Shown: piece after piece, positions 45,828-56,022 of the stretch
Layout: every line of letters begins with the position of its first letter
Numbering within the stretch: the first letter of the stretch is position 1
Position numbers and translations under genes: made by a program
Notes under the pieces: model-generated
Databases searched by the model: none
Seen by the model: the letters and a program-made list of their open reading frames with translations, nothing else
What the model was told of the DNA's origin: nothing
Assembly (NCBI RefSeq): GCF_900101095.1
Contig: NZ_FNFM01000002.1
Coordinates: 372,001 to 436,000, forward strand
Source: Actinopolyspora mzabensis
Lineage (GTDB): Bacteria; Actinomycetota; Actinomycetes; Mycobacteriales; Pseudonocardiaceae
Direction: 5' to 3'
DNA: 64,000 nucleotides

Positions 45828-47426
45828 TTGACTACGCAGCGAACCCGCGGGCCGTTGTCTGACGTGGTGGCGCGGCTGTGCGCCGACCTGCGCGGCAGGG
45901 TCGGAGCGGACACCGCGAACGGGTTGCACGAGGTGGTGCTCCGGCTCGGGGAACCGTTGCAGCTTGCGGTGGTGGGCAGGATCAAGTCCGGCAAGTCCAC
46001 GCTGGTCAACGCCCTGATCGGACGTAACGTGGCGCCGACCGACGTCGGCGAGTGCACGCGGGTCGTCACCCGATTCCGGTACGGCACGGTGGACCGGGTC
46101 GAGGTGGTCCTGCGCGACGGTGGCAAACGGTCGCTGCCGTTCACCTCCGACGGGGCGATCCCGGCTGATCTGGGAGTGGAGCGGGAGCGCGTCTCACACC
46201 TGGAGGCCTACCTGACCAACGAGGCGCTGCGCGATCTGACGGTGATCGACACTCCGGGGCTGGGGTCGACCGACGACTCCTCGGTCGCCCGCACCGAGGC
46301 GGTACTGGGTAGGGAGGCGGTGCCGGGCGAATCCGGAGCGGCGGAGACCGGAGCGGCGGGGACCGAAGCGGCGGAGCCGGAGGAACGCGCCGAAGCACTG
46401 GACCCGGTGTCGCGGAGCGCGGTGGCGGGCGCGGAGGCCGTGCTCTACGTCGTCACGCAGTCGGTGCGGGCCGACGACCGGCGGGCGCTGAGCTCGTTCG
46501 GCGCCGCGACCGGCAACCGCCCCGCGGGCCCGGCGAACGCGTTGGCCGTGCTGAACAAGGCGGACACGGTGGAGCCGGAGTCGGTGCGCGAGAGCGACGG
46601 CAGCGTGTGGCACGCGGCGAGTCTGCTGGCCGGCAGGCAGGCCCGGCAGCTCGGCCCGCGGGTGACCGACGTGCTCCCGGTGGTCGGGTTGCTCGCGGAG
46701 ACCGCCGAGACCGGGGTGTTCACCGCTTCCGATGCCGAGGCGCTGCACCGGCTTGCCGGGCTGGACGAGACGACCAGGGAAACCCTGCTGATCTCCGCGG
46801 ATCTGTTCACCGGCTGGGAGTGCGACGTGCCGACGGGCACCCGGACCCGCCTGCTGGAACTGCTCGATCTGTACGGCATCAGGTGTGCCCTGGAGGCCAT
46901 AGCCGCCGACCCGGACATCACGGCGGGGGAACTGCGTCGAGTGCTGCACGAGTCCTCCGGCCTGTCCGAGGTCTCCCGCAGGTTGAACGCGGTCTTCCGC
47001 GCCCGGGCCGACGGCATCAAGGCCGCGGCGGGTCTGGCGTCGATGACGGCCGTGGCGCAGCGGAGTCGGGACCCGGCGGAACGCGGGCGGATCCAGGACG
47101 GGATCGAAGCACTGCTGGCACGGCCCGACGCGCACCAGCTGCGGCTGCTGGAGGTGTTGACGCTGGTCTCCTCGGGCGAGGTCACGCTGCCGAACGACCT
47201 GCTCGACGAGGTGCTGCGGCTGGGGGCCTCGAACAATCCGTCCGAAAGGCTGGGGATGCTCGGGGGAGCTCCGGAGCGGCTGCTCGAGTACGCGATGGAA
47301 CGCGCCAACTGGTGGCGCTCGTTCGCATCGCTGGGCGCCACCCCGGCGCAGAGCCGGGTGGCCCACGTGGTGCACCGTGCCTACTTCCTGCTGTGGCAGC
47401 AACTGCGCAGCGGGACGCGCGGGTGA
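45828..47426 (+). CDS. dynamin-like GTPase (first of pair)
   Basis: 532 residues. G domain: P-loop 'VVGRIKSGKSTLVNALIG' (~residues 46-63), switch Thr in 'ECTRVVTRF', 'VIDTPGLGSTDD' (~142) and 'VLNKADT' (~243). An Ala/Glu/Gly insert follows DTPG. The C-terminal half is helical ('FRARADGIKAAAGLASM', 'LLEYAMERANWWRSF') and lacks an obvious membrane hairpin, as in IniC-like partners. Bacterial dynamins remodel or protect membranes. TTG start with GGAAGGAG about 7 bases before. It heads an operon with a GrpE-like protein and a second GTPase. Confidence 0.88.
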   Translation: MTTQRTRGPLSDVVARLCADLRGRVGADTANGLHEVVLRLGEPLQLAVVGRIKSGKSTLVNALIGRNVAPTDVGECTRVVTRFRYGTVDRVEVVLRDGGKRSLPFTSDGAIPADLGVERERVSHLEAYLTNEALRDLTVIDTPGLGSTDDSSVARTEAVLGREAVPGESGAAETGAAGTEAAEPEERAEALDPVSRSAVAGAEAVLYVVTQSVRADDRRALSSFGAATGNRPAGPANALAVLNKADTVEPESVRESDGSVWHAASLLAGRQARQLGPRVTDVLPVVGLLAETAETGVFTASDAEALHRLAGLDETTRETLLISADLFTGWECDVPTGTRTRLLELLDLYGIRCALEAIAADPDITAGELRRVLHESSGLSEVSRRLNAVFRARADGIKAAAGLASMTAVAQRSRDPAERGRIQDGIEALLARPDAHQLRLLEVLTLVSSGEVTLPNDLLDEVLRLGASNNPSERLGMLGGAPERLLEYAMERANWWRSFASLGATPAQSRVAHVVHRAYFLLWQQLRSGTRG

Positions 47427-47500
47427 CCGGACTCCTCGAACGTGCCGACAGTGCTCGATGGCCCGCCCCGCTCCGCCCGACCCGCGGTGTGCCCCACACC

Positions 47501-47551
47501 TGTCGGGTGGGGGTCCCTGTCGGGTGGGGGTCCCTGTCGGGTGGGGGTCAC
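47501..47551. repeat. 17-bp G-rich tandem repeat, 3 units
   Basis: TGTCGGGTGGGGGTCCC twice exactly and once with a final change. Each unit has G3 and G5 runs, so two units could form a G-quadruplex on the + strand. It lies in the 314-base gap inside the dynamin/GrpE operon. Unit length is not a multiple of three, in line with non-coding sequence. Confidence 0.85.
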
Positions 47552-47573
47552 AGCCATGCCGGGCGGCGTCGTT

Positions 47574-47601
47574 ACAGCCCTGCCGGAACAGCCCTGCCGG
47601 A
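47574..47601. repeat. 14-bp tandem duplication
   Basis: ACAGCCCTGCCGGA twice head to tail, 22 bases after the G-rich repeat in the same gap. Confidence 0.8.
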
Positions 47602-47740
47602 ACCGAGCGCGAGATTACTCGCGAGTGGAACCGAACACCGCGCCGCCGCGTCCAATGCGGCGGCAGCAGGGGCTTCGTATCGCGTCCCTCGGCCGAGAGA
47701 CCTGGGGTTGGGCAAGCCGCAACGGAGTTCGGAAACGCTG

Positions 47741-48124
47741 ATGGCCACTTTGAGCAACGAATCGCTCGTCGACCCGCTGGACCAGGCGCTGGCGGAGCGG
47801 GAAAAGCTGATCGAACTGTGCATGTACGCCTTCGACCGGACGCGCAGCGCGGGCGTCACCGAACGGCTGACGGAGGGAATGAGCACTGTGGGGGTAACCG
47901 CGTTACGTCCCGACGGGGAGCGGTTCGACCCGACCAGGCACGAGGCGGGAGGCACGGTCGCCACCGGTGACCACTCGCTGGACGGTGTCATCGCGGAAAC
48001 CGAGGTTCTCGGGTTCTCCGACCGAGGACGGATGCTGCGGCCCCCCGTCGTGGTGGTCTACCGCTCGAACCACGAGAGTTCCACCGTGGAACCGACGTCC
48101 TCCGGTGAGTCCACCGCGTCATGA
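47741..48124 (+). CDS. GrpE-like nucleotide exchange protein (short)
   Basis: 127 residues. The C-terminal part matches the GrpE beta domain: 'GVTALRPDGERFDPTRHEAGGTVATGDHSLDGVIAETEVLGF' then 'RMLRPPVVVVYR' (compare canonical 'FDPxxHEAV... RVLRPAxVxV'). The long GrpE coiled coil is reduced to ~45 residues. It should interact with an Hsp70, but no Hsp70 gene is next to it; in related genomes such genes occur beside an Hsp70 and dynamins. The stop overlaps the next start (ATGA), so it is coupled to the second GTPase. Confidence 0.8.
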   Translation: MATLSNESLVDPLDQALAEREKLIELCMYAFDRTRSAGVTERLTEGMSTVGVTALRPDGERFDPTRHEAGGTVATGDHSLDGVIAETEVLGFSDRGRMLRPPVVVVYRSNHESSTVEPTSSGESTAS

Positions 48125-50001
48125 GCACGAACTCTCCGCTCTCGAACCTGCCGGGCGCCGACGCGGCGGCGGCCTCGCAACTGCCCACCCAGGTGAAGCA
48201 GACCCGGGAGAACCTGACCGCGCTGGTGCGGGAGGTCGACACCGAGGCTGCTGAGTGGATCGAGCGCATCAGGAACTCGCGCACCGCCGTTCCGGGGGTG
48301 GTGGCGGTCGGCGAGACGAACCGGGGAAAGAGTTCCCTGGTCAACGCTCTGCTGGGCAGCCATGATCTGTCCCCCGTGGATGCCGATGTGGCAACGTCCA
48401 CCTATCTGTGGTTCCAGCACGGTACCGAGTGGGCCGGTTACGCGTGCTACCCCGGCGAGCAGGAACCGGTGCGGTTCGACATCGAGGAGCTGGGCTCCTG
48501 GTCCTCGGGAGCTGGCGAGCTCCCGGCCGGTGAACTGCCACCGAGATACATCAGGGTCGATGCTCCGCTGGAACCGCTGCGAGAACTCACGCTGGTGGAC
48601 ACACCCGGAGTTGGCGGGCTGCAGGCCGTGCACGGCGAGCTCGCCGCCGAAGCCGCCGCTTCCGCGACCGCGCTGCTGTTCGTGGCGGACGCCTCGGCTC
48701 CGTTCGGTCGCGGCGAGCTGGACTTCCTGCACAGCGTGAGCAACCGCGTGGAGACCGTGCTGTTCGTGCTGACCAAGACGGATCGGCATCGGGGTTGGCG
48801 CAGGGTGCTGGAGGAGAACCGGCAACTGCTGGCCACGCACGCCCCGCGGTTCGCCGAGGTTCCGATATATCCGGTTTCGGCGCGGATGGCCGAACTCGCC
48901 GCACGTTCCTCCGCCCCGGAGAGCGCGGCGATGCTGCGGGAACGCTCCGGTGTGGACGAGCTGCGTTCCGCGTTGCGGCAACTGGTCGCGGGCCACTCCG
49001 CGATGCTCGGCGAGGCCAACACCATGCGCGGCATGTCCACAGTGCTCAGCGAAATCGTCTCCGGCCTGGAGGGTGAGAAACGGGCGCTCACCGCAGGGGA
49101 GAGGGAAGTGGAGTCACTGCGCGCCAGACGGGAGGAGCTCGCGACGGCGCGCCGCTCCTCCACCCGGGGTTGGCAGGTCAAGCTGCGCGGGCGGATCCAG
49201 CGCACCCGCGTGGAGACCAGCCACGAGGTCACCGACCGGGTGCGCGAGGTGCAGAACTGGTTCCGACGCGAGGTCGATACTGCCGACGGGGAGAAGCTGG
49301 CGTCGCTGCCCGGGCAGGTCGACTCGGCGCTGCAGCTGGTCTCGACGCGAGTGGCCACCCTGCTGTCGGGCCGCCTGGACGAGGTGGCTCGCGACTCGCT
49401 GGCCGAACTGTTCGGCGAGGCGGAGCTGAACGTGATCCGCGCCCAGTTCGCACGCGGTAACCGCTCCCCGGTGGCGCTGCGCCCACCGGAGAGCAGGCCA
49501 CCCACCGCCGAGGACAAACTGCTGGTTTTCATGGGCGTTTCCGGCGGGTTGGGAGTCGGCCGCGCCGCGGCGATGCCGCTGGCGGGGATCGGGGTGGGCG
49601 CACTCAATCCCGTGGTGCTGCCGGTGACGATCGTGCTGGGCCTCGGGGCGGGCTGGTGGATGGCCCGCACCCGCAAGCACGCTGCCGACAAGCAGCACAT
49701 GAAGCAGTGGCTCGGCGACGCGATCTCGGAAGCGCGCTCGGCACTGGACCAACTGGTCTCCGAACAGCTCATCGATGCGGAGCAGCAGTTGTCGCTCGCG
49801 CTCGACGAGGCGCTGAGCAAGCGGATGGAGTCGATCGAGAGCGAACTCCGCGAGATCGACCAGGCGCTGAAGCTGGACTCGGCCGAGCGCAACCGGCAGT
49901 TGCAGCTGGTGAACCGCAGGTTGGAGGAGGCGGTTTCCGGCCGGGACAACGTGGAGCGGTTGCTGGAACGGATACGCGGGCTGCGCGACCGCTCCGGGTG
50001 A
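48121..50001 (+). CDS. dynamin-like GTPase with membrane hairpin (second of pair)
   Basis: 626 residues. G domain: 'VVAVGETNRGKSSLVNALLG' (~61-80), 'LTLVDTPGVGGL' (~157) and 'FVLTKTDRHRG' (~216). Helical stalk with heptads (~300-420, 'REVESLRARREELATARR'), then a hydrophobic hairpin 'LLVFMGVSGGLGVGRAAAMPLAGIGVGALNPVVLPVTIVLGLGAGWW' region (~462-512), and a C-terminal coiled coil to the end. This is the layout of IniA/DynA-type bacterial dynamins: membrane-inserted and probably heteromeric with the first GTPase. Overlaps the GrpE-like gene by ATGA. Confidence 0.9.
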   Translation: MSTNSPLSNLPGADAAAASQLPTQVKQTRENLTALVREVDTEAAEWIERIRNSRTAVPGVVAVGETNRGKSSLVNALLGSHDLSPVDADVATSTYLWFQHGTEWAGYACYPGEQEPVRFDIEELGSWSSGAGELPAGELPPRYIRVDAPLEPLRELTLVDTPGVGGLQAVHGELAAEAAASATALLFVADASAPFGRGELDFLHSVSNRVETVLFVLTKTDRHRGWRRVLEENRQLLATHAPRFAEVPIYPVSARMAELAARSSAPESAAMLRERSGVDELRSALRQLVAGHSAMLGEANTMRGMSTVLSEIVSGLEGEKRALTAGEREVESLRARREELATARRSSTRGWQVKLRGRIQRTRVETSHEVTDRVREVQNWFRREVDTADGEKLASLPGQVDSALQLVSTRVATLLSGRLDEVARDSLAELFGEAELNVIRAQFARGNRSPVALRPPESRPPTAEDKLLVFMGVSGGLGVGRAAAMPLAGIGVGALNPVVLPVTIVLGLGAGWWMARTRKHAADKQHMKQWLGDAISEARSALDQLVSEQLIDAEQQLSLALDEALSKRMESIESELREIDQALKLDSAERNRQLQLVNRRLEEAVSGRDNVERLLERIRGLRDRSG

Positions 50002-50546: not shown

Positions 50547-50565
50547 ATAGGTTAGCCTAAGTTCA
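50547..50565. promoter_or_regulatory. iron box 1 (DtxR/IdeR/DmdR site)
   Basis: ATAGGTTAGCCTAAGTTCA matches 15 of 19 positions of TTAGGTTAGSCTAACCTAA. It lies 146 bases before desA. Binding of Fe-loaded DtxR-type repressor would shut off desABCD in iron-rich conditions (established for Streptomyces des). Confidence 0.88.
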
Positions 50566-50567
50566 AT

Positions 50568-50586
50568 GAAAATTAGGCTAACCTAA
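50568..50586. promoter_or_regulatory. iron box 2 (DtxR/IdeR/DmdR site)
   Basis: The last 14 bases TTAGGCTAACCTAA match exactly; 15 of 19 overall. It is 21 bases from box 1, two helical turns, so two dimers can bind side by side. The rest of the 709-base gap 50002-50710 holds element B and two palindromes. Confidence 0.88.
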
Positions 50587-50710: not shown

Positions 50711-52276
50711 GTGAGTTTCCTCGTACCACCGGCCGAGCAGACCGCTGCGACATCGGCACAGTCCGTCGACCCCAAGTCGTACCTGCTGGACGAACACAAC
50801 ACCGAGCAGTACCGCGATTCGGTGACCGAAGGGGTACAGCGGGTGATCGGCGAACTCCTGGATCCGGGCCACCAGCCCACCACCGGAGTCACCCCCGAGC
50901 AGCTCGGGCCGGTCATCGGCGGAATCGACCTGGACGAACCGTTGCCGGACACCAAGAGCGCGCTCGACGAGCTGGAACGGGTCTACCTGCACGACGCCGT
51001 CTACTTCCAGCACCCGCGCTACCTGGCCCACCTCAACTGCCCGATCGTCATCCCCGCCCTGCTGGGCGAAGCCATCGGCTCGGCGATCAACTCCTCACTG
51101 GACACCTGGGACCAGAGCGCGGGCGGCACGCTCATCGAACGGCGGCTGATCGACTGGACCACTGCCCGCATCGGCTTCGGCCCGACCGCCGACGGGGTGT
51201 TCACCAGCGGAGGAACCCAGTCCAACCTGCAGGGACTCTTCATAGCCCGCGAGCAGGCGCTGCAACGGCACGCGGCGGAGAGCGGAACCGGCGGACCGGA
51301 GAGCGACCGCGCCGAACAGCTGTCGCGCCTGCGTGTCATCGCCTCGGCCGACAGCCACTTCAGCGTTGTCAAGGCGGCGAAACTGCTGGGCATGGGCGCT
51401 GCTTCGGTGCTGACCGTGCCCACCGACGAGCACCGGCGCATGCGGGCCGACGAGCTGCACGAGCTGCTGCGGAGCTGCCACGAGGCGGGACTGACCACGA
51501 TGGCCGTGGTGGCCACGGCGGGCACCACCGACTTCGGCAGCATCGACCCGCTCTCCGATATCGCGGCGCTGTGCGAGCGGTTCGGGGTGTGGCTGCACGT
51601 GGACGCGGCGTACGGCTGCGGTCTACTGGTCTCCCGGGAGAGCGCCCGACTGGACGGGATCGAACGCGCCGACTCGGTGATCGTGGACTACCACAAGTCG
51701 TTCTTCCAGCCGGTGAGTTCCAGCGCGGTACTCGTGCGGGACGGCTCCGTGCTGCGGCACGCCACCTACCACGCGGACTACCTGAACCCGGAGCGCCACG
51801 TGGCCGAACGGGTTCCGAACCAGGTGGACAAGAGCATCCAGACCACCAGGCGGTTCGACGCGCTCAAACTCTGGCTGACCCTGCGGATCATGGGCCCGGA
51901 CGCGCTCGGGCGACTCTTCGACGACGTGCTGGACCTGGCCGAGCGCACCTGGGAGATGCTGCGGGCCGATCCACGTTTCGAGGTGGTCAACCGTCCCGAG
52001 CTGAGCGCCCTGGTGTTCCGCTACGTGCCCGCCGCGAACGCGGACGGACAGCTCTGCGACCGGGTCAACCTGCACGCGCGCGACGCGCTGTACCGCTCGG
52101 GTGCCGCGATGGTGGCCGAGACGGTCGTCGACGGGAACACCTACCTGAAGTTCACCCTGCTCAACCCGCGCACCACGCTGCGGGACGTCGCCGAGGTGTG
52201 CGAGCTGATCGTCGAACACGGCAACCGGTACCTGACCGGGACGCCCGAGGCGGATCCCGAGCGCCGTGCGAGCTGA
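50711..52276 (+). CDS. desA: PLP-dependent lysine decarboxylase, desferrioxamine biosynthesis
   Basis: 521 residues, group II decarboxylase. It makes cadaverine from lysine, the first step to desferrioxamines. Motifs: '[32 protein letters not shown]', '[13 protein letters not shown]', '[16 protein letters not shown]', '[11 protein letters not shown]' and the PLP-binding Lys in '[15 protein letters not shown]' (~residue 327). GTG at 50711 is preceded by GAGGAGG. First gene of desABCD. Confidence 0.95.
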
Positions 52277-52301
52277 CCGAGAACTCCGAAGGGAAAACCC
52301 C

Positions 52302-53639
52302 ATGCCCCCCACTTACGACTTCGTAGCCGTCGGGGTCGGTCCGTTCAATCTCGGTCTGGCCTGCCTGACCGAGCCCATCGACGAGCTCGACGGGCTGTTC
52401 CTGGACGAGAAGCCGGACTTCGAATGGCACGGCGGGATGATGCTGCAGGACACCACCCTGCAGACGCCGTTCCTGGCCGACCTGGTGAGTCTGGCCGATC
52501 CGACCTCGCCGTTCTCGTTCCTGAACTACCTCAAGGAGGTCGGCAGGCTCTACTCGTTCTACATCCGGGCGGACTGGTTCCCACCCCGAGTGGAGTACAA
52601 CGAGTACTGCCGCTGGGCGGCGCGCAACCTCGACAGCGTCCGGTTCGGCCACCGGGTCGAGCGCATCGAGCACGACCCGACCGAGGACGTCTACCTGGTG
52701 CACGCCACCGAGGTCGCCACCGGGCGGACGGAGACGCACCGGGCGCGCAGGCTGGTGCTGGGCACCGGCACCCCGCCCCACGTCCCCGAACCGTGCCGCG
52801 ACCTGGGCGGCGACGTGATTCACGCGTCGCGGTACCTGCACAACCGGGACTCGCTGGTGCGCAAACCCAGCATCACGATCGTCGGCAGTGGACAGAGCGC
52901 CGCGGAGATATACCGGGATCTGCTCGGTGAGATCGACGAGCACGGCTACACCCTCAACTGGGTGACCCGCTCGGCCAGGTTCTTCCCGCTGGAGTACACC
53001 AAGCTGACCCTGGAGATGACCTCGCCGGAGTACGTCGACTACTTCCACTCGCTGCCGGACAGGACCCGGCAGTCGCTGCTCGCGCAGCAGCACGGCCTCT
53101 ACAAGGGCATCAGCGCTGAACTGGTCGACGAGATCTTCGACCTGCTCTACCTGAAGCGGGTGGCCGGGCCCTGCCCGACCAGACTGCTGACCAACACCGA
53201 GGTGACCTCGGCCGAACACCACCCGGCGGACGGCGGCTACACGCTGGGACTGCGGCAGTGGGAACAGCAGGAGGACTTCAGCCTGCACACCGACGGGCTC
53301 GTGCTCGCCACCGGCTACCGGTACCGCACGCCGGAGTTCCTGCAACCGATCACGCACCGGATCAGCTGGGACGAGTCGGGCAGGTTCGACGTCGGCCGCG
53401 GCTACGGCGTGGACCCGACCGGCGAGGAGATCTACGTGCAGAACGCCGAGCTGCACACGCACGGCTTCGTCACCCCCGACCTCGGGATGGCCGCGTACCG
53501 GAACTCGCGCATCATCCAGGGGATGCTCGGCGAGGAGTACTACCCGGTCGAACGTTCGATCGCCTTCCAGGACTTCGGCGCTCCCGGCGACCTCGGACCT
53601 GCCCGGAGCGAACCGGCAGGAGAGGAGTCGGCGGCATGA
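52302..53639 (+). CDS. desB: cadaverine N-monooxygenase (lysine N6-hydroxylase family)
   Basis: 445 residues, FAD-dependent. It N-hydroxylates cadaverine. Motifs: '[20 protein letters not shown]' (FAD), '[22 protein letters not shown]', '[16 protein letters not shown]' (NADPH) and '[15 protein letters not shown]'. ATG at 52302 follows GAAGGG; 25 bases after desA. Its stop overlaps desC (ATGA). Confidence 0.95.
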
Positions 53640-54226
53640 CCGAGATCGTGTTCGAGCGCACGGACGAACGGCTGGGCGAGTTCGCCGTGCGCCCCGTGTC
53701 GGCCGACGAGGATACCCAGCTGCTGCACGGCTGGCTCACCCACCCGAAGTCGGCCTTCTGGCTGATGCTCGACGCCGAACCGGCCGACGTGCGGCGGCAG
53801 TTCCGCACCATCGAGGCGACGCCGGGCAACGACGCGTTCGTCGGCCTGCACAACGGGATTCCCGCCTTCCTGATCGAGCGGTACGACCCGGCCCGTTCGG
53901 AACTGGCGGAGCTGTATCCCGTTCGGCCGGGCGACGTGGGGATGCACTTCCTGGCCGCGCCCACCGGTATGCCGGTGCACGGCTTCACCCGCGCCGTGCT
54001 CACCACGGTGATGGACATGCTGTTCACCGACCCCGCGACCGAGCGGGTGGTCGTGGAACCCGACGTGAACAACACCTCGGTGCACGCGCTGAACGCGGAG
54101 GTCGGTTTCGGAGTGGTCGACACCGTCTCGCTGCCCGAGAAGAGAGCGCTGCTCAGCATCTGCACCCGCGCCGACTACCTGGCGAGCAGGACCGCGGGTT
54201 CGACCGAGGGGGAGGTATCACGGTGA
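53636..54226 (+). CDS. desC: siderophore N-acyltransferase
   Basis: 196 residues, the IucB/AlcB-like GNAT fold: '[29 protein letters not shown]', '[18 protein letters not shown]' and '[40 protein letters not shown]'. It acylates N-hydroxycadaverine with acetyl- or succinyl-CoA. Overlaps desB by ATGA and desD by GTGA, so translation is tightly coupled. Confidence 0.95.
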
Positions 54227-56022
54227 GTTCCGGCAACCCCGGCACGCACGAGCCCGCGGGCCATCTGACTCCGGAGCACTGGCGGCTGGTGAACCGCCGC
54301 CTGGTGCGCAAGGCGCTGGCCGAACTCTCGCACGAACGGCTGCTGACCCCCACCCCGGTCGGGGAAGGACGCTACGTGCTCGGCAGCGACGACGGCAGGG
54401 TGCGCTACCACTTCCGGGCCAGGATCGGGAGCCTGCGGCACTGGTCGATCGACACCGACAGCATCACCCGGCACCGCGACGGCGCGGAGCTGCCGCTCGA
54501 CGCGCTGGAGCTCTTCCTGGAGCTGCGCGACACGCTGGGGCTGCACGAGGGGCTGCTGCCGGTGTATCTGGAGGAGATCAGCAGCACGCTGGAGAGCGAC
54601 GCGTTCAAACTCGCCAAGCCCCGGGTGAGCTCAGGAGAGCTGCTGGACGCCGGGTTCCAGGCGATCGAGTCGGGCATGACCGAGGGGCATCCGTGCTTCC
54701 TGGCCAACAGCGGCCGGATCGGGTTCGACCTCGCCGAGTCCGCGAAGTACGCGCCGGAGGCGGGGGTGCCGCTCAAGCTGGTGTGGCTGGCCGCGCACCG
54801 CGACCGGGTCGGCTTCAGCGCCTCGGCGGGGCTGGACTACGAGGAGCTCGTGCGGTCCGAACTGGACCGATCGACCCGGGAGCGGTTCGAGAAGCGGATC
54901 CGCGAGTTCGGGCTGGATCCCGCCGATTACCTGTTCGTGCCGGTGCACCCCTGGCAGTGGGACAACAAGCTGCCGGTGACCTTCGCGGCGGAGTTCGCCA
55001 CCCGCAACCTGATCCACCTCGGCGACGGCGACGACGATCACCTGCCGCAGCAGTCCATCCGCACGTTCTTCAACGCCGACTCGCCGGAGCGGAACTACGT
55101 CAAGACGGCGATCTCGGTGCTGAACATGGGCTTCCTGCGGGGGCTCTCGCCCGAGTACATGCGCGCCACCCCGGCCATCAACGACTGGGTGGGCGAGCTG
55201 GTCGCCGGTGACGAGCTGCTGCGCGAGTCCGGCTTCGACATCCTGCGGGAACGCGCGGCGGTGGGATACCACAACGAGTACTACACGGCCGCCGCGAAGG
55301 ACTCGCCGTACCGCAAGATGCTGGCCGCGCTCTGGCGGGAGAGCCCGGTTCCGAAGCTGCGGGAGGGGCAGCGGCTGGCCACCATGGCCGCGTTGCTGCA
55401 CGTGGACGAGTCCGGCGAGCCCCTGGTCGGCACGCTGATCAACCGTTCGGGGCTGGCACCGGCCGACTGGCTGCGGCGCTACCTGGACGCCTACCTGCGC
55501 CCGCTGCTGCACTGCTTCTACGCCTACGGCGTGGTGTTCATGCCGCACGGCGAGAACATCATCCTGGTGCTGGAGGACGGGGTGCCGAAGCGGGCACTGC
55601 TCAAGGACATCGGCGAGGAGGTCGCCGTGATCGAGCCGGAGACCGAACTCCCGGCCGAGATCGAGCGGATCCGCTCCGAGGTGCCGGAGCACCTGCGGGC
55701 GCTCTCGCTGTTCACCGACATCTTCGACTGCTTCTTCCGCTTCCTGTGCTCGATCACGCACGAGCACGGGCTGCTGGACGAGCGGGAGTTCTGGCGGACG
55801 GTGGCCGAGTGCGTGGCCGATTACGAGGCAGCCGCGCCGGAGCTGCGGGACCGGTTCCGCAAGTACGACCTGTTCGCCGAGCGTTACGAGCTGTCCTGCC
55901 TCAACCGGCTGCAGCTGGGCGACAACCAGCAGATGGTGAACCTGCAGGACCCGGCGAGCGCGCTGCAGATCGCGGGAACGCTGGACAACCCCATCGCGCC
56001 CCACGCGCCCGATCGGGACTGA
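54223..56022 (+). CDS. desD: NRPS-independent siderophore synthetase (IucA/IucC family)
   Basis: 599 residues. It joins N-hydroxy-N-succinylcadaverine units with ATP to give desferrioxamine E/B-type chains or rings. Motifs: 'GHPCFLANSGRIGFDL', 'FVPVHPWQWDNKLPVTF', 'LPQQSIRTFF', 'NYVKTAISVLNMGFLRGLS', 'YHNEYY' and 'VVFMPHGENIILVLEDG'. GTG start overlaps the desC stop. No transporter or receptor gene follows. Confidence 0.95.
   Translation: MSSGNPGTHEPAGHLTPEHWRLVNRRLVRKALAELSHERLLTPTPVGEGRYVLGSDDGRVRYHFRARIGSLRHWSIDTDSITRHRDGAELPLDALELFLELRDTLGLHEGLLPVYLEEISSTLESDAFKLAKPRVSSGELLDAGFQAIESGMTEGHPCFLANSGRIGFDLAESAKYAPEAGVPLKLVWLAAHRDRVGFSASAGLDYEELVRSELDRSTRERFEKRIREFGLDPADYLFVPVHPWQWDNKLPVTFAAEFATRNLIHLGDGDDDHLPQQSIRTFFNADSPERNYVKTAISVLNMGFLRGLSPEYMRATPAINDWVGELVAGDELLRESGFDILRERAAVGYHNEYYTAAAKDSPYRKMLAALWRESPVPKLREGQRLATMAALLHVDESGEPLVGTLINRSGLAPADWLRRYLDAYLRPLLHCFYAYGVVFMPHGENIILVLEDGVPKRALLKDIGEEVAVIEPETELPAEIERIRSEVPEHLRALSLFTDIFDCFFRFLCSITHEHGLLDEREFWRTVAECVADYEAAAPELRDRFRKYDLFAERYELSCLNRLQLGDNQQMVNLQDPASALQIAGTLDNPIAPHAPDRD

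Follow-up and report, generated by a model that had tools for sequence, protein, structure and literature searches.

Pairs of bacterial dynamins are already known from PMC6104087, PMC4159319 and PMC6715688; Cj-DLP1/2 is described in one of these (PMC6104087) as a 2:2 complex that tethers membranes, and LeoABC supplies another pair (PMC4159319). Hsp70-type genes have been noted in related settings: one sentence in PMC5760070 notes that iniR of M. smegmatis is followed downstream by a dnaK-like gene, and PMC7159879 reports that about 14% of the neighbourhoods of GAP1-N2 GTPase-centric conflict systems carry HSP70 and GrpE, a subset also having an HSP70 that lacks the peptide-binding domain, mostly in actinobacteria and firmicutes. 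The word 'dynamin' does not occur in the main text of PMC7159879. Here we describe a locus of Actinopolyspora mzabensis, at positions 45828-50001 of a 64,000-nucleotide window (contig NZ_FNFM01000002.1, positions 372,001 to 436,000), in which a GrpE-like gene sits between two genes for dynamin-like GTPases. The locus would comprise a heterotypic dynamin pair, IniC-like dyn1 and IniA-like dyn2, and the exchange head of a dedicated Hsp70-type switch. We think it somewhat more probable than not that an Hsp70-type ATP switch at the membrane, with the GrpE-like protein as its exchange head, regulates this pair in envelope maintenance, a reading that builds on gene content, the GrpE fold, linkage in relatives and an ATPase domain with no detectable substrate-binding domain.

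Like iniBAC, the locus has two adjacent dynamin-like GTPases, and dyn2 matches IniA (6j72) over residues 42-600 (E 3.8e-15); a STAND/LuxR protein also lies near the dynamins in some families. Unlike iniBAC, the locus has a GrpE-like gene between the GTPases and a reversed order (IniC-like, GrpE, IniA-like), no iniB-like gene is adjacent to it, and the order iniB-iniA-iniC is not found; the genome carries a separate iniBAC-like locus. Divergent dynamin partners lying side by side are shared with Cj-DLP1/2 and LeoABC, whereas the available passages of PMC6104087 and PMC4159319 mention no GrpE or Hsp70 partner. In the GAP1-N2 systems of PMC7159879, the GTPases belong to the DO-GTPase family and come with GAP1 and FNIII proteins, whereas ours are dynamins; a scan confined to the three window proteins, with neighbouring genes outside it, gave no GAP1 or DO-GTPase match at E ≤ 1. 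The locus differs from canonical DnaK–GrpE in that its GrpE has shortened helices and sits between dynamins rather than by dnaK, and in that its likely Hsp70 partners show no substrate-binding domain. Among the open-access titles and abstracts listed by our searches, a scope that leaves subscription journals mostly outside, none concerned a dynamin–GrpE operon.

The IniC-like dyn1 (45828..47426, forward strand) may start at TTG 45828, which is preceded by GGAAGGAG, or at GTG 45864, the start favoured by our rough gene caller. A spacer (47427..47740) holding a 17-base GC-rich unit in three exact tandem copies (47499-47549) separates it from the GrpE-like gene (47741..48124, forward; 127 residues), whose stop overlaps the start of dyn2 (48121..50001, forward) in a four-base ATGA (48121..48124). 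Promoter- and terminator-like sites were sought at the locus, including the spacer, and none was found. Both flanking proteins match Dynamin_N in Pfam (E 4.7e-15 and 1.4e-14) and show the dynamin fold of a Dynamin_N GTPase domain with a helical stalk, dyn1 by its fold model and dyn2 through its full-length IniA match. A crude hydropathy scan (mean 1.7 over 19 residues, no membrane predictor) flags residues 490-508 of dyn2 (mean 2.02) as the sole segment above 1.7 in the pair; dyn1 has none by the same scan.

The GrpE-like protein matches Pfam PF01025 (E 2.9e-7, 30.8 bits, cut-off 25.8) in a match limited to profile positions 98-163 of 165. Its AlphaFold model, with a predicted local distance difference test score of 92.1, shows two short helices followed by a confident GrpE beta domain, and the 12 best matches of the model in the PDB are all GrpE. 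The full long dimerizing coiled coil is absent. The model has helices only at residues 12-33 and 37-49, and its alignment to 1dkg_B begins at chain residue 66, so the protein is, on the model, a truncated GrpE relative and not a standard GrpE. In an alignment of 32 GrpE-like rows, conservation is high in the beta domain with its FDPxxHEA-type motif and does not extend to the Arg near the C terminus that contacts DnaK in E. coli. One or more hydrophobic segments precede the GrpE head in 14 GrpE-like proteins and in that of locus L273. Such N-terminal segments, seen in L057, L059, L060, L062, L170, L174-L178 and L180, apparently mark membrane-anchored GrpE heads.

These results bear out much of the first-pass annotation, which had described a dynamin–GrpE–dynamin run with a shortened GrpE-like protein in the middle: the genes and coordinates are correct, the last two genes do overlap by ATGA, and a GrpE head with an incomplete long coiled coil is indeed built into a membrane-remodelling operon, as its fold and the flanking dynamins show. 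Structure prediction reveals the beta domain whose absence had been set beforehand as grounds for abandoning the idea. The membrane hairpin ascribed to one dynamin holds up as a hydrophobic segment in dyn2 alone, by hydropathy only; a hairpin shape goes beyond what that scan can tell.

The three-gene run exceeds chance. A search with dyn1 gave at least 560 loci, of which we took the best 80 named ones, from related genera. In 78 of these, dyn1, GrpE and dyn2 keep the same order and direction; GrpE is missing in the other two (L203, Halopolyspora; L215, Saccharopolyspora). Comparison of the three genes with those of five Actinopolyspora species (15 gene-by-species pairs) gives ratios of nonsynonymous to synonymous substitution rates of 0.08-0.46, with dyn1 taken from 45864 onward. 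Counting every locus read, we find GrpE directly beside dyn2 and in the same direction 120 times; in 66 of these pairs the genes overlap by four bases, as judged by the rough gene caller and with some genomes counted more than once; this caller missed some genes that were recovered only by tblastn (the Hsp70 of L068 and the GrpE of L045). At E ≤ 1e-18, a GrpE-like protein is present in 64 of 100 genomes (our own and 99 relatives). At the level of the class, 17 of 394 genomes have a match at E ≤ 1e-12, a count that includes two DnaK-type loci (L181, L182). Matches to dyn1 also occur in 33 plasmid records, all below 60% identity, of which L273 and L274 were examined. One relative (L056:10305-12908, G077) carries two near-identical transposase-like genes, 291 residues each and named by eye, between GrpE and dyn2.

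The absence of an Hsp70 gene proves to be a lineage-specific lack of linkage. Five related Hsp70s, searched against the window by tblastn, gave a best E of only 0.41, which also speaks against a relic, such as one by the trmB-like gene, the site of the Hsp70 in L118. Nor does an Hsp70 lie just beyond the window: the nearest one found, DnaK, is at 513 kb of the same contig (C14 in our numbering), and another Hsp70-type gene is about 375 kb upstream. In Pseudonocardiaceae generally, and in this genome too, the Hsp70 gene no longer adjoins the module in most cases: it lies within 10 kb in 1 of the 80 named loci (L238, Tamaricihabitans), and none was found in 26 further loci read over 14.8-19.9 kb. 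In L118 (the same contig as L238), L121 and L123, family genomes that were fetched because an Hsp70 lay near the module, the distance from GrpE is roughly 6-13 kb.

Outside the family, by contrast, 26 of the 27 dynamin-pair loci read carry an Hsp70-type gene within the 16.5-21.6 kb examined (L055-L063, L065-L068, L137, L170-L178, L180, L269 and L273), and the single miss, L169, has its trio on a contig of 11,352 bases. Kept out of the 27 are L270 (dyn1 near the contig end, with dyn2 and Hsp70 not seen), L064 and L179 (GrpE-like genes without dynamins), the DnaK-type L181 and L182, L138 (Hsp70 at the contig end), L272 (fragments), and L271 and L274 (IniA/IniC type, both with an Hsp70). Genomes searched have 1 to 17 Hsp70-type matches, from which our own arithmetic puts a chance Hsp70 within about 10 kb on either side at a few per cent of loci. 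The arrangement varies: Hsp70 is immediately upstream of dyn1 in L055, L056, L065-L067 and, by tblastn, L068; it is 6-8 kb away in L060 and L061 and on the opposite strand in L057, L059, L062 and L063; L170 and L172 read Hsp70-Hsp70-GrpE-dyn2; L269 reads dyn2-GrpE-Hsp70-dyn1 with a four-base GrpE/Hsp70 overlap; and L137 reads Hsp70-dyn1-dyn2, with GrpE absent. In Nonomuraea gerenzanensis (L273), chosen as an example because it was opened as the best match in the plasmid collection, the order is dyn1-GrpE-dyn2-Hsp70, with the ATGA junction of GrpE and dyn2 as in the window and 27 bases between dyn2 and Hsp70. An Hsp70 family gene also directly follows a dynamin pair on the Gordonia plasmid pG135.

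The linked Hsp70s are themselves unusual. We scanned 12 Hsp70-type proteins with Pfam (nine beside the dynamin pair, the Gordonia protein, and Hsp70B and Hsp70C of this genome); the best-matching stretch runs to position 368-377 of 599, past the ATPase domain, and no substrate-binding domain was detected in any of the 12. An alignment of 15 ATPase domains shows that the linked proteins retain the phosphate-binding and neighbouring motifs and that they lack the DnaK linker. In place of a substrate-binding domain, the hydropathy scan finds a linker plus a membrane segment, to which an outer part is added in some proteins; L172 has a PQQ-type beta-propeller there, L171 has WD40-like repeats (by eye) and L273 has a CD225 domain. 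This variable C-terminal part may be a sensor. A hydrophobic segment is present in Hsp70, GrpE or both in 23 of the 26 loci; of the other three, L058 and L068, whose Hsp70 tails look hydrophobic, were not computed, and L171 was not flagged. Two of these loci hold further variations: L172:4259-6454 encodes an Hsp70 ATPase domain with several hydrophobic segments in the region after it, and this Hsp70 may be a polytopic membrane protein; L273:13824-17965 includes the fusion of the ATPase domain to CD225, of the interferon-induced transmembrane type, with a caspase-like protein (by eye) two genes beyond.

The first-pass annotation had called the operon one without an Hsp70 and its GTPases chaperone-controlled. 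The former description stands for the window and for most Pseudonocardiaceae, and it fails elsewhere: the survey of neighbourhoods that was proposed for a lost or distant Hsp70 shows that the absence is not general. The latter is open to doubt, since in none of the Hsp70s scanned does the match to the family reach beyond the ATPase domain, and 'Hsp70-type ATP switch' is the better wording.

Across the 100 genomes, the three components tend to occur together. The GrpE-like protein and dyn1 are both present in 63 genomes, GrpE only in 1, dyn1 only in 5 and neither in 31 (Fisher p 1.7e-19); the GrpE-like protein and the Hsp70 consisting of the nucleotide-binding domain only (NBD-only) co-occur in 63, with GrpE only in 1, Hsp70 only in 6 and neither in 30 (p 1.9e-18); and dyn1 and the NBD-only Hsp70 co-occur in 67, with dyn1 only in 1, Hsp70 only in 2 and neither in 30 (p 5.1e-22). 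These counts are not independent because the genomes are related. They depend on cut-offs of our own choice (GrpE, E ≤ 1e-18; dyn1, about 190 bits or more; Hsp70, E ≤ 1e-110), by which three genomes of family f15 with Hsp70 at 1e-102 to 1e-107 were scored as absent. G089, the sole dyn1 genome without Hsp70 by this cut-off, was scored as lacking GrpE and Hsp70 despite diverged copies of both beside its dynamins (L269).

Which Hsp70 would serve the locus in A. mzabensis? At the cut-offs used, the genome encodes three Hsp70-type proteins. DnaK has its own ordinary GrpE adjoining (C14:512-515 kb). Hsp70C (C13:261-263 kb) lies in the separate iniBAC-like locus (L078:6921-15855, C13), together with an IniA/IniC-like pair and an 862-residue IniR-like regulator (names by reading); its second phosphate motif is altered, and it is a possible pseudo-ATPase. 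Hsp70B (C14:41-43 kb), the gene about 375 kb upstream, sits within an ESX-4-like type VII secretion cluster (L079:7448-19332, C14:40-52 kb) of EccB, mycosin, EccD, EccC, Hsp70B and two WXG100 proteins (names by reading). A hydrophobic segment connects its ATPase domain with a C-terminal T7SS_Rv3446c domain (TIGR03931, 83.2 bits, cut-off 47.6); Rv3446c is treated as an ESX-4 component in PMC4791881. Hsp70B is the first candidate partner because it is the only strong match in the genome to the profile of dynamin-linked Hsp70s, a profile that included Hsp70B itself. We regard partnership with Hsp70B as a nearly even call that leans slightly towards doubt.

In the mechanism that we propose, the Hsp70 ATPase domain would reach the membrane by its own segment or through its GrpE partner and bind ATP there. 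ATP hydrolysis would alter how it contacts the two dynamins; by speeding up the release of ADP, the GrpE head would reset the Hsp70. Dynamin assembly, and with it membrane fission or tethering, would thereby be confined to the proper site or to conditions of envelope stress. We infer that the proteins would be physical partners, with exchange activity on one side, control of the dynamins on the other and a role in the envelope. Between envelope and phage, the envelope is the more likely setting, because the dynamins resemble the iniBAC pair, for which a part in envelope maintenance has been suggested. A more specific version, which we hold tentatively as somewhat short of probable, is that a membrane ATP/ADP switch, made up of an NBD-only Hsp70 with a minimal GrpE head, licenses dynamin assembly and has no chaperone function. 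In parallel, Hsp70 would have lost its substrate-binding domain and GrpE much of its coiled coil, with the anchor in Hsp70, GrpE or both depending on the family. We count the loss of much of the long helix in the window GrpE in favour of the proposed switch, alongside the Hsp70 domain loss.

Several observations weigh against this switch. Common descent within one family accounts for much of the co-occurrence. The dynamin pair occurs without GrpE in L203, L215, L268 and L137, so GrpE is dispensable for such loci, and the GrpE-like genes of L064 (G069) and L179 (G423) have neither a dynamin nor an Hsp70 in the piece fetched around them. The loop in lobe IIB is 9 columns shorter than in the organism's own DnaK in 12 of 14 rows, and 7 and 4 columns shorter in the other two. 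This short loop recalls the HscA-type Hsp70s, which are not known to use GrpE. The Hsp70 tree does not join the type VII-linked clade with the dynamin-linked clades, and the EccC beside Hsp70 in L055 and L056 is only 41-43% identical to the EccC beside Hsp70B, so orthology of Hsp70B to the dynamin-linked proteins is unsupported. In the tree itself, the order of the clades lacks support, the bootstrap had not converged, two rows fill less than half of the columns, and DnaK and Hsp70C are on very long branches. Finally, G050 (L267) lacks the module and keeps a diverged type VII-linked Hsp70. Joint loss of type VII secretion and module is therefore an ambiguous test of partnership, as G050 disagrees with G011 (L265) and G056 (L266), in which EccC is kept, the module is absent and the fetched piece contains no Hsp70.

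The same observations give some room to other explanations. The GrpE head might be an adaptor and not an exchange factor, binding the Hsp70-like ATPase or the dynamins and gathering them at the membrane, as the shortened IIB loop, the unconserved C-terminal Arg and the dynamin-pair loci without GrpE would allow; the well-kept beta domain and FDPxxHEA-type motif, and the ATPase motifs retained in the linked Hsp70s, argue for exchange instead. Alternatively, the GrpE-like protein might serve the housekeeping DnaK, with its place in the operon coupling general proteostasis to the dynamins. A DnaK is present in the genome and no Hsp70 is linked at the locus, but that DnaK already has a GrpE beside it, the neighbour in other families is an NBD-only Hsp70, and it is with this subfamily that the GrpE head co-occurs. 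As the shortened IIB loop and a GrpE that some loci do without count against a standard exchange role, we give both alternatives some weight, rating the adaptor as unlikely and service to DnaK as very improbable.

A conflict system, anti-phage or cell-suicidal, would share its parts with the proposed switch and differ in purpose: the dynamins would act on the membrane in response to an invasion sensed by a STAND regulator or by the Hsp70/GrpE switch. In its favour, dyn2 matches the PADLOC models LeoA (3.1e-29) and LeoBC (2.9e-26) and dyn1 matches LeoA (5.8e-9), STAND/LuxR proteins lie near the dynamins in some families, and Nonomuraea has the caspase-like protein. Predicted conflict systems built on another family of GTPases can also include HSP70 and GrpE, according to PMC7159879. 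We nevertheless find such a role improbable, as the GrpE-like protein has no match among the PADLOC models and the genes flanking the Pseudonocardiaceae loci that were read are largely conserved, unlike those of a mobile defence island.

Downstream of dyn2, the window holds a siderophore-type cluster (50711-56022; decarboxylase, N-monooxygenase, acyltransferase and NIS synthetase, named by reading), with two iron-box-like palindromes upstream of it near 50547-50586. Its place is taken in many other genera by a DUF6802-like and a PEPCK-like gene. About 4.2 kb past the window end, L110 (G000, C14:440210-440779) encodes an acidic DxDxDG-repeat protein; in 68 of the 80 named loci a relative is encoded downstream of dyn2, at most about 5.3 kb away, and the relative in L055 matches DUF6802. 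This protein is perhaps a further part of the module.

The finding bears on how bacterial dynamins are switched on at a specific site, for which an Hsp70-type ATPase and an exchange head near a dynamin pair would be a candidate regulator. If the proposed switch is correct, the Hsp70/GrpE cycle would extend beyond protein folding, and roles would be suggested for the ESX-4-type Hsp70-like protein of the Rv3446c family and for the dnaK-like gene beside iniR.

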